Positions 1,368 to 64,000 of a DNA stretch of 64,000 bases are shown one piece after another. The position numbers and the translations under genes are program-made. Source of the DNA: a virus; IMG/VR virus record IMGVR_UViG_3300035684_000001, positions 1 to 64,000 of that record, one strand, 5' to 3'. The notes below the pieces were generated by a model, which saw only the letters and a list, made by a program, of their open reading frames with translations, had not been told where the DNA came from and ran no database searches. The first letter of the stretch is position 1, and every line of letters starts with the position of its first letter.

Positions 1368-1396
1368 TTGACATCTGCAATACAATTGTCTAAGAT
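1368..1396 (+). promoter_or_regulatory. sigma70-type promoter for the Csx3-like gene
   Basis: TTGACA (1368-1373), 17-base spacer, TAAGAT (1391-1396). It predicts a start near 1403, about 24 bases before the gene, whose start is preceded by AGGAG. With the terminator at 1887-1927 this makes the gene a self-contained transcription unit. Confidence 0.6.
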
Positions 1397-1426
1397 AATT
1401 TTATGAATTAAATTCAGGAGACACAC

Positions 1427-1732
1427 ATGGAAGTTAAAGTGACCGAAAATAATGGCGTGACGCTGTTGGAGATTTTGAAAGACGGCAATCCTGTTAATGC
1501 TCAAAATCCAGTGTTTATTGAGGAATTGCCAGATTTGGTGATTCCAGAACTTTCTGGCGGGTCTGTGGCGATCGTCTCGGGGATGCCTTTCTGGGCTTCT
1601 AGCCGGGTTATGCTTGCTGTCAAGAATATTTTTGGGGCGATCGCCGTGTACGATCCCAAACTAGCCGGCGGCGTGGTAGTACACACCACATCACCTAATT
1701 ATAAAGTTGGTGCCATACTCCCTTTGGGCTAG
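1427..1732 (+). CDS. csx3: Csx3-like protein (putative cyclic-oligoadenylate ring nuclease fold)
   Basis: 101 residues with an AGGAG ribosome binding site and its own promoter. The C-terminal half follows the Csx3 family pattern: a SG-P-W segment at 51-56, a helix, then IAVYDPKL at 72-79 and a GGVVV strand followed by NYKVGAILPL. Csx3 proteins are known from type III CRISPR loci; the archaeal member degrades cyclic tetra-adenylate (Crn3). Here there are no cas genes or CRISPR repeats nearby. The helix between W56 and Y75 has no histidine; the only histidine is H86. The catalytic residues of characterised members may therefore not be conserved, and I cannot align them exactly from memory. In a mobile element the plausible role is to quench host type III cyclic-nucleotide signalling (inference). 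Confidence 0.65.
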   Translation: MEVKVTENNGVTLLEILKDGNPVNAQNPVFIEELPDLVIPELSGGSVAIVSGMPFWASSRVMLAVKNIFGAIAVYDPKLAGGVVVHTTSPNYKVGAILPLG

Positions 1733-1886
1733 CTTATCTTTGCTTGTCCCGGCGTCAAAGTAGAAAGCCGGGTCCCAAACCCACGGGTAAAGGTTTGACA
1801 GTTTACATCCCGTTTAAAATCTGCGAATCCGCTCGAAACTGCGAATGGGAACCCGTAATTGACTGGTTCAAGAATTGTTTAGAATG

Positions 1887-1927
1887 AAAAAGCGGGCGAT
1901 CGAATAACTCCGATCGCCCGCTTTTTT
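1887..1927. terminator. bidirectional Rho-independent terminator built on a HIP1 palindrome
   Basis: 12-bp perfect stem AGCGGGCGATCG (1891-1902) with CGATCGCCCGCT (1911-1922), 8-base loop, A-run before and T-run after. It serves the Csx3-like gene and possibly the convergent HigA-like gene. Confidence 0.8.
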
Positions 1928-2011
1928 ACAACTAAAATAGATTTAAACCAAGCTTATAATTTTTGTTGGGTGTGTAATCATTTCTTTCAAATCATCAGCA
2001 GAAGCTCGTGC

Positions 2012-7676: not shown

Positions 7677-8315
7677 TTAGAATCCTTGAGACAACCCACC
7701 TAAATATCCCCTAAGATATGCTTCGGAAAGTTTTACAGGTTCTTGACCTTCAAGTGGCTTTGGACTGTTTTGCCGATGGGCGATCGGGTTGCCTTCTATA
7801 TTGTAACTGACAACAAAAAGTCGTTGAGCTTCGTCGTCTAAATCCAAAGCATCCAGACAGCCAAGATTTTGGGTAGATAAACAAACAATCACATCGTAGG
7901 CTTTTGCTAATTTAATCAACTCTTCTGTTATTTTTCTTCCCAACCTAGGGTCGAAATGACATCCAAAATCTTTAAAGCCTACAATTTGCGGCATAACGTC
8001 TGATGCGATTGCCAAAAAATACAAACAAACTAGCCTCTCTGCTCTATTTTTGCGGAGTTTTTGATCCAAGATTTTGGGGTCAAAACCGATCTCTTGCAAT
8101 ATTTCTTCAACTTTTTCTTTGCGCTCTGTTCTTAGTTTATCAATTGCGCGATCAATTTGCTTGTCTAAACCTTCTAAATCTAGTCTTGGCAAGTCGTAAA
8201 GAAAGTATGACGCTATCAATTTTGCTGGATAACAGTCAATTGCGCCCGTTTCTCCAATGAAAATATTGAACTGAGATAGGTTTAATTTAAAATGAGACAG
8301 GTCTGATCTTGACAT
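7677..8315 (-). CDS. degenerate AAA (AAA_21/OLD-like) ATPase-fold protein
   Basis: 212 residues. The start of an AAA_21/OLD-type ATPase is recognisable (FNIFIGETGA) but the GKS/T of Walker A is absent. The C-terminal part (DFGCHFDPRLGRKITEEL, VIVCLSTQN) lines up with the Walker B and switch region of such ATPases (D-GENLHP and STH), again without the key acidic and His residues. Compare DNFGENLHPLL and LIISTHQ in the intact relative at 37317-38300. Probably not an ATPase; could be a partner, inhibitor or decoy. Confidence 0.5.
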   Translation of the reverse strand: MSRSDLSHFKLNLSQFNIFIGETGAIDCYPAKLIASYFLYDLPRLDLEGLDKQIDRAIDKLRTERKEKVEEILQEIGFDPKILDQKLRKNRAERLVCLYFLAIASDVMPQIVGFKDFGCHFDPRLGRKITEELIKLAKAYDVIVCLSTQNLGCLDALDLDDEAQRLFVVSYNIEGNPIAHRQNSPKPLEGQEPVKLSEAYLRGYLGGLSQGF

Positions 8316-8365
8316 TGCTTTGTTTGACTTATTATAACGCTTGTAGGTATGATTTGAGTTAAAAT

Positions 8366-8390
8366 TAATTTAATTTAATTTAATTTAAAT
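8366..8390. repeat. short TTAAT tandem repeat
   Basis: Four perfect TTAAT units (8366-8385) plus a near unit, spanning the stop codon of the HNH gene. A slippage-prone AT tract. Confidence 0.7.
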
Positions 8391-9195
8391 AACTCCAGCT
8401 TTTGCCGTGCTTGATATTTTCAATAGCTTTTCTAGAGACTCCAAATAATCTACTGATTTCAGCACAACTGATGTTATTGGAAAGCATATTTTTTATTTCT
8501 TTTACTTGTTCAGTATTCAGTTTTTTTAATTCTTTTGTCTCTAATAAACTCCACGTTTTACCTTGCCTAATACTTTGAACTGTCCAACGAGAAACCCCAA
8601 ATAATTGACCAACTTCGGTGCAAGTCATGCCTTCTAAAAGTAATTTCTTAATTTTTTCTGCTTGTTCAAAACTTAGTTTCCTTCCTCCTCGTGTTGTTCT
8701 TATTTTAGTTCCTACCCCTTCAACATGACTCCATCTTTTGCCAGAATTGATTTCTGAAATCGTGCGATTACCCACACCAAACCGATTTTTAATTTCTTTG
8801 AGAGTGAGTTTGTTTTCAATTAGTAATTTTTTTATTTCTATAACTTTCTCTTCGGTAAGTTTAGAGCTTGGTACTATAGACCCTTTTGTTTGTCGATTTT
8901 TATTTTTTTTGTCTGCCATATTATCAGCACAGGTGCCAAGCCATAAATGATCTGGATTGATACATCGCGGGTTGTCGCAAGTATGGCATACGTAAAGTTC
9001 TCCTGGATCTTTTCCTTTGTAAAGTTTGTAGATTACGCGAGTAAGTAAATATCGCACACCCTCAATAGAAATTGATGGTTTTTTACTGTTTTTAGAATAA
9101 TTAGTAAGCCAGCAAGACTCTTTGGAGATGATTGAGTTTTCAATTCGTTCTTTTACATTTAAAGGTATTAAAGGAATTGGTTTTATATTGCTCAT
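8380..9195 (-). CDS. HNH homing endonuclease with three tandem helix-turn-helix modules
   Basis: 271 residues. An HNH_3-type domain (CHTCDNPRCINPDHLWLGT, then N) occupies residues ~70-105. It is followed by three ~45-residue repeats of one pattern: L-EQ--EIK-LL, a helix-turn-helix FGVSR-T-I, G-(K/R)-WS. These fit NUMOD/IENR-type DNA-recognition modules of free-standing homing endonucleases. More AT-rich than its neighbours. It sits as a guest between small phage genes, with no interrupted host gene visible. Confidence 0.8.
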   Translation of the reverse strand: MSNIKPIPLIPLNVKERIENSIISKESCWLTNYSKNSKKPSISIEGVRYLLTRVIYKLYKGKDPGELYVCHTCDNPRCINPDHLWLGTCADNMADKKNKNRQTKGSIVPSSKLTEEKVIEIKKLLIENKLTLKEIKNRFGVGNRTISEINSGKRWSHVEGVGTKIRTTRGGRKLSFEQAEKIKKLLLEGMTCTEVGQLFGVSRWTVQSIRQGKTWSLLETKELKKLNTEQVKEIKNMLSNNISCAEISRLFGVSRKAIENIKHGKSWSYLN

Positions 9196-9249
9196 AGTTT
9201 GTGAGAAATTTTATTTGATACGATTCATGCGATAGTCCTAGAATAGAAT

Positions 9250-40009: not shown

Positions 40010-41179
40010 TTAAACCTCCATTATTTTGGTTGAGTGTTCCCGCAATAGTGCTGCGATGCGACAGGCTTCTGGGCGATCGACATTCAGGTAATCACAAAAG
40101 CGAGTCTCTGTAATTAGTCCCCGATCCAGCGCCTCGATCGCCAGACATTGATAGTGGAGGGGGAACGTTTCAGTGCGTCGCGGAACCGTCTTTGCACTAA
40201 ACTCCTGCTGTACCTTTTTTAATTTCAGCCCGCGATCGCGCAGTTTTTCCCAAGTTCCAGTCCGCACAAGCTCCATTTCCTCTAGCTGACAAGCAAGCAC
40301 TTTTGCGGAAACGCCGTAGTAATGAGCTAGCGTGAATAGATGGGTCGGAGTAAACTTGCCATGCGCGCGGCACATATCGTTGAACCGCTTGAGCAAGCCA
40401 CTTGTGGGAATGAGGAAATATTTAGCAAATGATTCGACCGATCGCTCGCTCTCTGGAGTTCGCTGATATTTCCCCTCAAAATCCAACACAGCTTTTCGCC
40501 GATCTGTTAGGAAGCGAAAGTATTGACGGGCGATCGACCAGCGCTGTCGTTCTTCCGAATGATTAACATTGATTGCCATGCAACCGCCAAGTCGCTCGTC
40601 GTAGGTGTAAATCCCTGAGTATTTGGGTGGTAGATCTAGATAGAAAATGCGAAGCCCCACATCCTGCGCTAGAATTTCGTGCAGTCGTGAAACCGGACTG
40701 TCACCAAGCCCAAGTTGCTGACGTTCTGAAATCGCTATGCTTTCCGCCGCAACCTTAATAGGTAAATTTGTCACATCCTGTTCGGAAGGATAGTTCTGGG
40801 GAAGCGACGCAGACACAATCTCTTCAAGCTCTAGGTAGTTCCGGCACAAGTCCTCTAAACGCAAAACGGATGATTTGATCTGTACTTCTTCCCCCTCGTT
40901 GCACCGATAAGCTACCTGAAAATGTATCTCGAAAGGTTGAACAACCGGGTGATCGCACACAAATTCATTGACCGATCGCCCGTAGAGACAAGCAAGTTGA
41001 TTTAATTCCGCTGCTTTGACGGGGCGCTCTCCTTTCTCGATCGCCACTATCGTAGTACGTGCAACATAAATGGCTTTAGCAACATCAGATTGCTTCATAC
41101 CGCATTTTTGACGTGCTTGCCGGAGAAGCTCTCCCAGTTCCTGCGGGTTGGTGTTATCGAGGACTATCGTAGCAGTCAT
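40010..41179 (-). CDS. XRE regulator fused to an ImmA/IrrE-type domain lacking the HExxH motif
   Basis: 389 residues. Helix-turn-helix at ~13-70 (LGELLRQARQKCGMKQSDVAKAI, TTIVAIEKGERPV). The ImmA/IrrE-like domain spans ~165-300: LRIFYLDLPPKYSGIYTYDERLGGCMAIN. The helix that should read AHExxH then appears as WSIARQYFRFL (215-224). The zinc-binding HExxH is thus RQYFR and the protease should be inactive. The downstream anchor E-FAKYFLIP is kept. In phages and ICEs, XRE-ImmA proteins switch the lysogenic state. The upstream gene at 41189 ends 9 bases before it. Confidence 0.7.
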   Translation of the reverse strand: MTATIVLDNTNPQELGELLRQARQKCGMKQSDVAKAIYVARTTIVAIEKGERPVKAAELNQLACLYGRSVNEFVCDHPVVQPFEIHFQVAYRCNEGEEVQIKSSVLRLEDLCRNYLELEEIVSASLPQNYPSEQDVTNLPIKVAAESIAISERQQLGLGDSPVSRLHEILAQDVGLRIFYLDLPPKYSGIYTYDERLGGCMAINVNHSEERQRWSIARQYFRFLTDRRKAVLDFEGKYQRTPESERSVESFAKYFLIPTSGLLKRFNDMCRAHGKFTPTHLFTLAHYYGVSAKVLACQLEEMELVRTGTWEKLRDRGLKLKKVQQEFSAKTVPRRTETFPLHYQCLAIEALDRGLITETRFCDYLNVDRPEACRIAALLREHSTKIMEV

Positions 41180-62513: not shown

Positions 62514-64000
62514 TTAGTCGCCAAAGAAGTCGCTATCATCGTCGAAATCATTGAGACTGGTACTAACAGGTTCTTCGGCGTCATCATCGAAAAAGTCACT
62601 GTCATCGTCAAAATCATTGCTAAAATCTTCGTCGTCATCGTCGTCGAAGAAATCGCTATCGTCATCAAAATCCTTGAATGTACAAAGATTTATTTCGTCA
62701 TTTGTGTCTTCACGATCGCCCGCAAAGACTTCTACATCTATTGAAGCCAACTTTGGAAGTACAGCTTCACAGGAAGACATAACCCGATCCACCCAGTTGG
62801 GCAATTGCTCTAGAAGTAGTTTTAATTCTTCTATCGTGTCACTGTCTACTCCCTCATAAGTGCAGGGAGAGTCGGTCTGCCAAAACTCATAAGTCTCAGT
62901 AGGTTCTGATTCTTTAGGCTCTGGTTCTTTTTGTGACTCTGCTGGAGAGTCTTGTTCTTGGGGAACTTCTTGAGGATTTAATTGCTCTTCGAGTTCCACT
63001 TGCTCATCTAAGAGTTGCTTTAGTTCTTCGGCTCCTACGAAAGGAGTCGATAGTGCATCCCCCAAAGATTTATAGTTGGCGCGAGCCAGTCTTAACTCCT
63101 CCGTGGATGAGTCGATTTCTTTTTGAATCACATTGCAAATACTCTCAATGTTTAAAGATTCTACAATCTTCGTTCTGTTACTTGAGGGAAGAATGTAGCT
63201 TCCTTTTCCGCCCAGAATTAAATTTATCGAGAGGGTTCGCGGACTTAGTTCTGCGCGTAGTTGGTAATCAGCAAACTTGCCGATAACAGGATTGAATTTG
63301 TTGACCGCCGCAGGATTGTCTTTAATATTTCGCAGGTTATTTAGTTTTTCTGCGATTATCTTGCCAATTTCCTCGGCATTTTTCTTATTGTTATCGATTT
63401 CTTGACCCACCAAGAACAATTTCGGTTCGGCAGTTTTGACTTGTGCCAAATCTGCCTGCATCTTTTCGATCGAATCGCATAGAAAATCTATCCTTTTTAC
63501 GGACCTATCTAAGGCTACAGTGTTTTGATAGCGTTGCTGCTCGTATCCTCTTTGCTGAATCAGCAAAGAATTTACGAGGCGATCAACATCTATTTTGCGC
63601 TTGATGCATTCGTCACCGCTGGCGATCGCCATCATCGTTGCAGCAGAAGCTACAAACGGGTCGATGTCGTCGCTGGCGTTACCGGGAGCTTCTCCCGACA
63701 TCAAGAATTGGAACGATTCTAATTTCTGAAGGATTACCCCCCAGATGTAGGAATCGAAACCGGGTTTACCTTCCACGCCTTGAGTAGCGTAGCGGAAAAT
63801 AAACACGTTGTCGAACAAGTTACCTTGACGCACGATGCGCCCAGATCGCTGTTCGATATCTGAAGGCCTCCAAGGACAATCCATGTCGTGAACGGCCAGC
63901 AGTCGAGATTGGATGTTGACTCCGGTTCCCAGTTTTTGAGTCGAACCCAAAATAACTCGGATTTCACCGGAATTAACTTTTCCCATCATTTTTTTACGAG
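62514..64000 (-). CDS. C-terminal part of a phage/plasmid SNF2-type helicase (DarB-like), with acidic DFDDDSDFF repeats
   Basis: The frame is open to the right edge, so the N-terminal part lies outside; an ATG at 63989 is internal. Visible are helicase motifs V/VI: VILGSTQKLGTGVNIQSRL, DMDCPWRPSDIEQRSGRIVRQGN, then a FRYATQG segment. Very large phage and plasmid proteins of this type join a methylase and a helicase and are linked to anti-restriction. A long coiled-coil region follows (~150-330). The C-terminus carries DFDDDSDFF three times within about 55 residues and ends SDFFGD. Confidence 0.8.
   Translation of the reverse strand, partial: RKKMMGKVNSGEIRVILGSTQKLGTGVNIQSRLLAVHDMDCPWRPSDIEQRSGRIVRQGNLFDNVFIFRYATQGVEGKPGFDSYIWGVILQKLESFQFLMSGEAPGNASDDIDPFVASAATMMAIASGDECIKRKIDVDRLVNSLLIQQRGYEQQRYQNTVALDRSVKRIDFLCDSIEKMQADLAQVKTAEPKLFLVGQEIDNNKKNAEEIGKIIAEKLNNLRNIKDNPAAVNKFNPVIGKFADYQLRAELSPRTLSINLILGGKGSYILPSSNRTKIVESLNIESICNVIQKEIDSSTEELRLARANYKSLGDALSTPFVGAEELKQLLDEQVELEEQLNPQEVPQEQDSPAESQKEPEPKESEPTETYEFWQTDSPCTYEGVDSDTIEELKLLLEQLPNWVDRVMSSCEAVLPKLASIDVEVFAGDREDTNDEINLCTFKDFDDDSDFFDDDDDEDFSNDFDDDSDFFDDDAEEPVSTSLNDFDDDSDFFGD

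Follow-up and report, generated by a model that had tools for sequence, protein, structure and literature searches.

A phage-borne Csx3 homologue without the catalytic histidines of Crn3 is a candidate cA4 sponge

What would a phage gain from a homologue of the CRISPR-associated ring nuclease Csx3 (Crn3), and would such a protein cut cyclic tetra-adenylate (cA4) or merely hold it? The question is raised by a csx3-like gene of 101 codons (1427..1732, + strand) in the window, i.e. the 64-kb stretch of DNA analysed here, which is the start of a 188,553-b IMG/VR virus record and has the csx3 cassette near one end. A preliminary description of this locus had proposed an orphan ring nuclease directed against type III CRISPR, with binding rather than cutting as a fallback.

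Identity and genomic setting of the Csx3 protein

The product of the 1427-1732 ORF is a genuine Csx3 homologue. Residues 26-98 match the Pfam family PF09620 (Cas_csx3) with 43.6 bits (E 2.7e-11), exceeding the curated cut-off of 21 bits, and several PADLOC Csx3 models also match (best E 4.8e-11). The score against TIGR02579, the NCBIfam Crn3/Csx3 equivalog, is 27.1 bits and stays below the cut-off of 55.4, so the profile match suggested beforehand was obtained at the level of the Pfam family and not at that of the equivalog. The AlphaFold2 model has a pLDDT of 93.4, and its Foldseek comparison with the PDB returned Archaeoglobus fulgidus Csx3 chains at ranks 1 to 13 (E <= 1.7e-4, TM 0.67-0.75). 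This fold evidence is partly dependent on the profile evidence because the AlphaFold2 alignment included Csx3 relatives. The motifs SGMPFW, VYDPKL, GGVVV and YKVG, the C-terminal pattern from which the identity had been guessed, are all present. No fold match was found in BFVD, no family in PHROGs and no tblastn match in the INPHARED phages; one scan of a genome collection with the C-terminal alignment gave no close bacterial relative, and 386 cyanobacterial genomes yielded distant matches only (<= 30 bits).

The gene is phage-borne, as had been supposed. The record encodes a terminase, a tail sheath, a tail fibre and an endolysin, with a weak Baseplate_J match. A related phage of 188,942 b, G001, shows collinearity with the record along a permuted circle (132 kb aligned at 83.5%) and carries the corresponding csx3 locus (L002); a terminase-based search for relatives returned this same second phage only. 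HIP1 octamers (GCGATCGC; 112 observed versus 1.5 expected) are over-represented about 75-80-fold in the window record and in G001. This over-representation points to a cyanobacterium as the host of both phages. In a genome search, many cyanobacteria were found to carry Csx3 themselves.

Neither Csm1 (TIGR02578) nor RAMP (PF03787) genes nor a CRISPR-like repeat array were found in the whole 188,553-b record or in the ~189-kb G001, so that the orphan status first noticed in the window extends over both phages. A degraded remnant of a type III locus was considered and rejected on account of these absences. A chance profile match, or a decaying remnant, would agree with the score below the equivalog cut-off; set against the Pfam score, the high-confidence fold match, the purifying selection described below and the lack of Csm1, RAMP genes and arrays in two ~189-kb records, such an origin is hardly credible. 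Three other genes of the record may be mentioned. A DarB-like antirestriction homologue, possibly an anti-defence gene, lies at the opposite end of the window (62514-63989; phrog_10089, E 3.9e-50). An HTH protein with an IrrE-type metallopeptidase domain (Peptidase_M78), resembling ImmA/IrrE regulators, is encoded at 40010-41179. A homologue of a phage-type phosphoadenosine phosphosulfate reductase (phrog_12882, E 3e-145) is located at record positions 172004-173212 (8004-9212 of locus L151).

Active-site residues and intact Crn3 in other viral contigs

In Crn3, two dimers in a head-to-tail stack jointly form the active site (PMC7371418). One face of Csx3 contributes H57, H60 and H80, and the opposite face D69 and R71 together with S44, G45, R46, I22 and I49; it is this D69 face that makes most of the contacts with cA4 (PMC7371418). 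H57, H60 and H80 were reported to be absolutely conserved across the family (PMC7371418). Activity requires both H60 and D69 and is strongly reduced in the R71A and H80A variants (PMC7371418). With H60A, cleavage was undetectable, yet cA4 was bound and fibres were formed with it, and mixing the H60A and D69A variants restored activity (PMC7371418).

In both phages, the equivalents of all three histidines are replaced. The catalytic helix is devoid of histidine (ASSRVMLAVKNIF and ANEAVALSVKNLF in the two phages), an observation of the preliminary description that the alignment bears out, and the H80 equivalent is T in the window protein and N in that of L002. Because of these replacements, cleavage by the known Crn3 mechanism is unlikely, and the ring-nuclease reading is weakened. 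The D69-side, cA4-holding face is partly kept. D76 corresponds to D69 of A. fulgidus Csx3, S51/G52 to S44/G45 and W56 to W50, and these residues are retained in both phages; K78 corresponds to R71, an R to K change, and an R46 equivalent is absent from both proteins. The window protein thus resembles A. fulgidus AF1864 (PF09620; PDB 6yud, 3wzg) in fold (TM up to 0.75), in length, in being a small standalone protein and in its S44-G45, P-W and Y-D69-P elements. It departs from AF1864 in the missing H57, H60, H80 and R46 and in the R71 to K change, and from Csx3/Crn3 generally in being a phage-borne orphan, neither in nor beside a type III locus, that scores below the Crn3 equivalog cut-off. At least one helix histidine is present in 62 of the 64 standalone Csx3 domains collected, the two phages being the only exceptions; the other Csx3 domains without one (22/79) occur only in long, mostly AAA-type proteins.

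Could other residues have taken over catalysis? H86, which is located two residues before the H80 equivalent and would lie on the same strand side, is identical in the two phages, as are K66, N67, D76 and K78, and a ring nuclease working through H86 with K66, N67 and K78 can be imagined. That phages would use such an enzyme is made plausible by the contigs described next. Nevertheless, both helix histidines have gone with no substitute metal-binding pair, and the mutant data on H60, D69, R71 and H80 (PMC7371418) also speak against it; we consider this possibility improbable.

Intact Crn3 was found on at least eight viral contigs (L017, L018, L019, L025, L026, L027/L028, L165 and L166), which answers the suggestion that phage genomes be surveyed for homologues. 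By intact we mean that both helix histidines and D69 are present, that position 71 is R or K, and that a histidine occupies the H80 position or one beside it. R71 is replaced by K in L027/L028, and the L165 contig measures 272.6 kb. Phage-type neighbours (Dda-like helicase, Sak4, SbcCD, thymidylate synthase, DNA helicase) accompany the gene in L165, L017, L026, L025 and L028; L019 and L166 are less securely viral. No RAMP gene was detected in the intact-Crn3 viral records tested, a set to which L027's own record did not belong. Like the window protein, these are Csx3 domains on viral contigs, but they retain the helix histidine pair and the H80-region histidine and are only about 23-37% identical to it. 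The first seven intact sequences, including that of L005, form one clade (support 100/97; L165 and L166 are not in the tree), and the window/L002 pair falls outside it. A tblastn search of the INPHARED phages with an intact phage Crn3 gave no match. The ring nucleases reported in a published survey that covered 28,114 phage genomes are AcrIII-1, Csx20 and Csx16, Crn3 not being among them (PMC12409355). Judged from their sequences, the intact phage proteins are a candidate new family of viral ring nucleases, which would be an addition to that survey. Outside the viral contigs, an intact crn3 is present at 5938-6222 of L005, an 18-kb linear record of Pyramidobacter sp. YE332, amid prophage-type genes (integrase, LexA-type repressor, DNA polymerase). 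In L027/L028 (5515-6258), the Crn3 domain is C-terminal in a phage protein of ~240 aa that has a further N-terminal part.

Trapping of cA4 and its alternatives

With the cutting residues lost and the binding side partly kept, trapping of the signal rather than its destruction may follow. On the histidine face the phage Csx3 is a natural equivalent of H60A, and for this reason the best-supported single explanation is that it is a cleavage-dead Csx3 that traps cA4, a candidate anti-type-III sponge. The former fallback, binding without cutting, has thereby become the leading hypothesis; we favour it tentatively, at somewhat less than even probability, from residues, predicted fold and analogy. 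A phage would have captured Csx3 and lost its histidine (metal/catalytic) face, the D69 face being partly kept. The protein would bind cA4 produced by a type III CRISPR system of the host, its dimers would stack around the ligand as those of the Archaeoglobus H60A variant do in vitro, and effectors activated by cA4 would be starved by this sequestration. The same position of the cassette in two collinear phages is in line with this explanation. On the other side, H80, the sole contact of the H60 face with cA4, is replaced in both phages, and the affinity for cA4 may be reduced or absent because R46 is lost and R71 is changed to K.

A precedent within the ring-nuclease families is Csx15, members of which sequester cA4 in head-to-tail filaments (PMC13148439). 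Sequestration of a cyclic nucleotide signal in place of its cleavage, as proposed for the window protein, is also the mode of action of the phage sponges Acb2, Tad1 and Tad2. Csx15 and these sponges belong to other protein families, and Csx15 is cellular and unobserved in phage genomes. AcrIII-1 (DUF1874) and AcrIII-2 (viral SAVED) share with the window protein their viral origin and the cA4 of type III CRISPR as target, proposed in the present case, but they have other folds and both are catalytic. It has been argued that the large cyclic oligoadenylate output of type III systems could make sponging fruitless (PMC13148439), and the known AcrIII proteins are enzymes. A phage Csx3 that naturally resembles a cleavage-dead mutant makes this futility argument directly testable.

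Cyanobacterial csx3 loci suggest another role. In seven of them (L119, L124, L126, L128, L131, L132 and L141) a standalone, histidine-bearing Csx3 adjoins a longer AAA-type Csx3, a pattern that, at the residue level, suggests split half-sites. The AAA-type second copy (e.g. in L119, L124 and L132) lacks the helix histidine and H80 and has D69 and K71, as does the phage protein, from which it differs by its greater length, its histidine-bearing neighbour and an NGxxS instead of an SGxPW motif. The phage protein might accordingly stack its D69 face on the histidine face of a host Csx3, or compete with the host Csx3-AAA, and either hybrid cA4-cleaving sites or a jammed host complex would result. 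Such a partnership is conceivable since Csx3 sites form between two dimers and activity is regained in the H60A plus D69A mixture (PMC7371418). A standalone host Csx3, however, has its own D69 and would not need a partner, and the window protein shares no more than 26-34% identity with the copies on cyanobacterial plasmids and joins their clade by a long branch. We regard this half-site role as unlikely.

The two-ORF cassette and a candidate frameshift

The cassette has the same order at the corresponding place in both phages: promoter, csx3, a 47-codon ORF and a hairpin. The sigma-70-type promoter (TTGACA-17-TAAGAT; 1368..1396, + strand) starts exactly where the preliminary description had placed it, and its hexamers and spacing are identical in L002 (9941-9969). 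The terminator-like hairpin with its T tract (1885..1928, + strand) has a folding energy of -30.5 kcal/mol (z -9.0), and the L002 cassette also ends in a hairpin (-20.7, z -5.9). The gene therefore does have its own promoter and terminator hairpin; the idea of a self-contained unit has to be modified, since a second conserved ORF (1744..1887, + strand, -1 frame relative to csx3) had been overlooked and the unit comprises two ORFs. Inverted repeats in the promoter, read by eye as a regulator operator, are not conserved between the two phages and were discarded as such.

Comparison of the window with L002 gives a dN/dS of 0.31 for csx3 overall. Codons 1-28 show nine synonymous and no amino-acid differences (dN/dS 0), and residues 29-101 evolve faster (dN/dS 0.47). 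These values indicate that csx3 is maintained and not decaying. The 47-codon ORF is more constrained still (dN/dS 0.08, 83% amino-acid identity); its apparent start codon is TTG in the window and CTG in L002. Its product has a basic N-terminus followed by LTVYIP and a helix, resembles ribbon-helix-helix proteins by eye only, has no Pfam match and gives a poor AlphaFold2 model (pLDDT 57). In an acr-aca operon the downstream gene encodes a DNA-binding regulator, a role for which this conserved ORF would at best be a tentative candidate. The fixed N-terminus, the faster-evolving remainder and the more constrained downstream ORF, together with the loss of catalytic and several ligand residues, would also fit a repurposed fold with no cyclic-nucleotide role, for example a structural or regulatory protein acting with, or fused to, the 47-codon product. 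The fixation in both phages of S51/G52, W56 and Y75-D76-P77, part of the cA4 face, argues against this repurposing, which we consider a serious though less probable explanation than trapping of cA4.

The 47-codon ORF may be expressed by -1 frameshifting, for which a zero-frame heptamer, a 5-9 nt spacer, a stable downstream structure and a conserved -1 ORF are looked for. Tandem slippery heptamers, C_CCT_TTG (1720-1726) and T_TTG_GGC (1723-1729), are located on the + strand directly before the csx3 stop (1720..1729), within 17 bp that do not differ between the phages; the candidate site, in 1700-1800, reads CCCTTTGGGC. The -1 frame of the small ORF is open back to 1705. A conserved 11-bp RNA stem (1737-1747 paired with 1783-1793, + strand) follows 7 nt after the second heptamer. 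Folding of the stem region is stronger than after synonymous-codon randomisation (z -2.7 in the window, -4.4 in L002), and none of the 11 pairs is broken in either phage; in one pair both bases differ between the phages, in three a single base does. The heptamer motif by itself is weak evidence because 15 of the 193 ORFs of the window record have one near their end. From these two sequences, frameshifting from csx3 into the 47-codon ORF seems possible, if rather short of probable, and the predicted fusion product would be about 153 aa. A polymerising trap triggered by cA4 could then be combined with a minor, C-terminally extended frameshift form into a two-component sponge, or into a half-site partner of host Csx3; this combination is doubtful, even more so than the half-site role taken by itself. 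Finally, HIP1-containing hairpins of the type GCGATCG...CGATCGC occur at window positions 1896 and 4119 and at record position 108918. A T-rich tract comes after the hairpin at 1896 and after that at 108918, possibly a host-like style of terminator.
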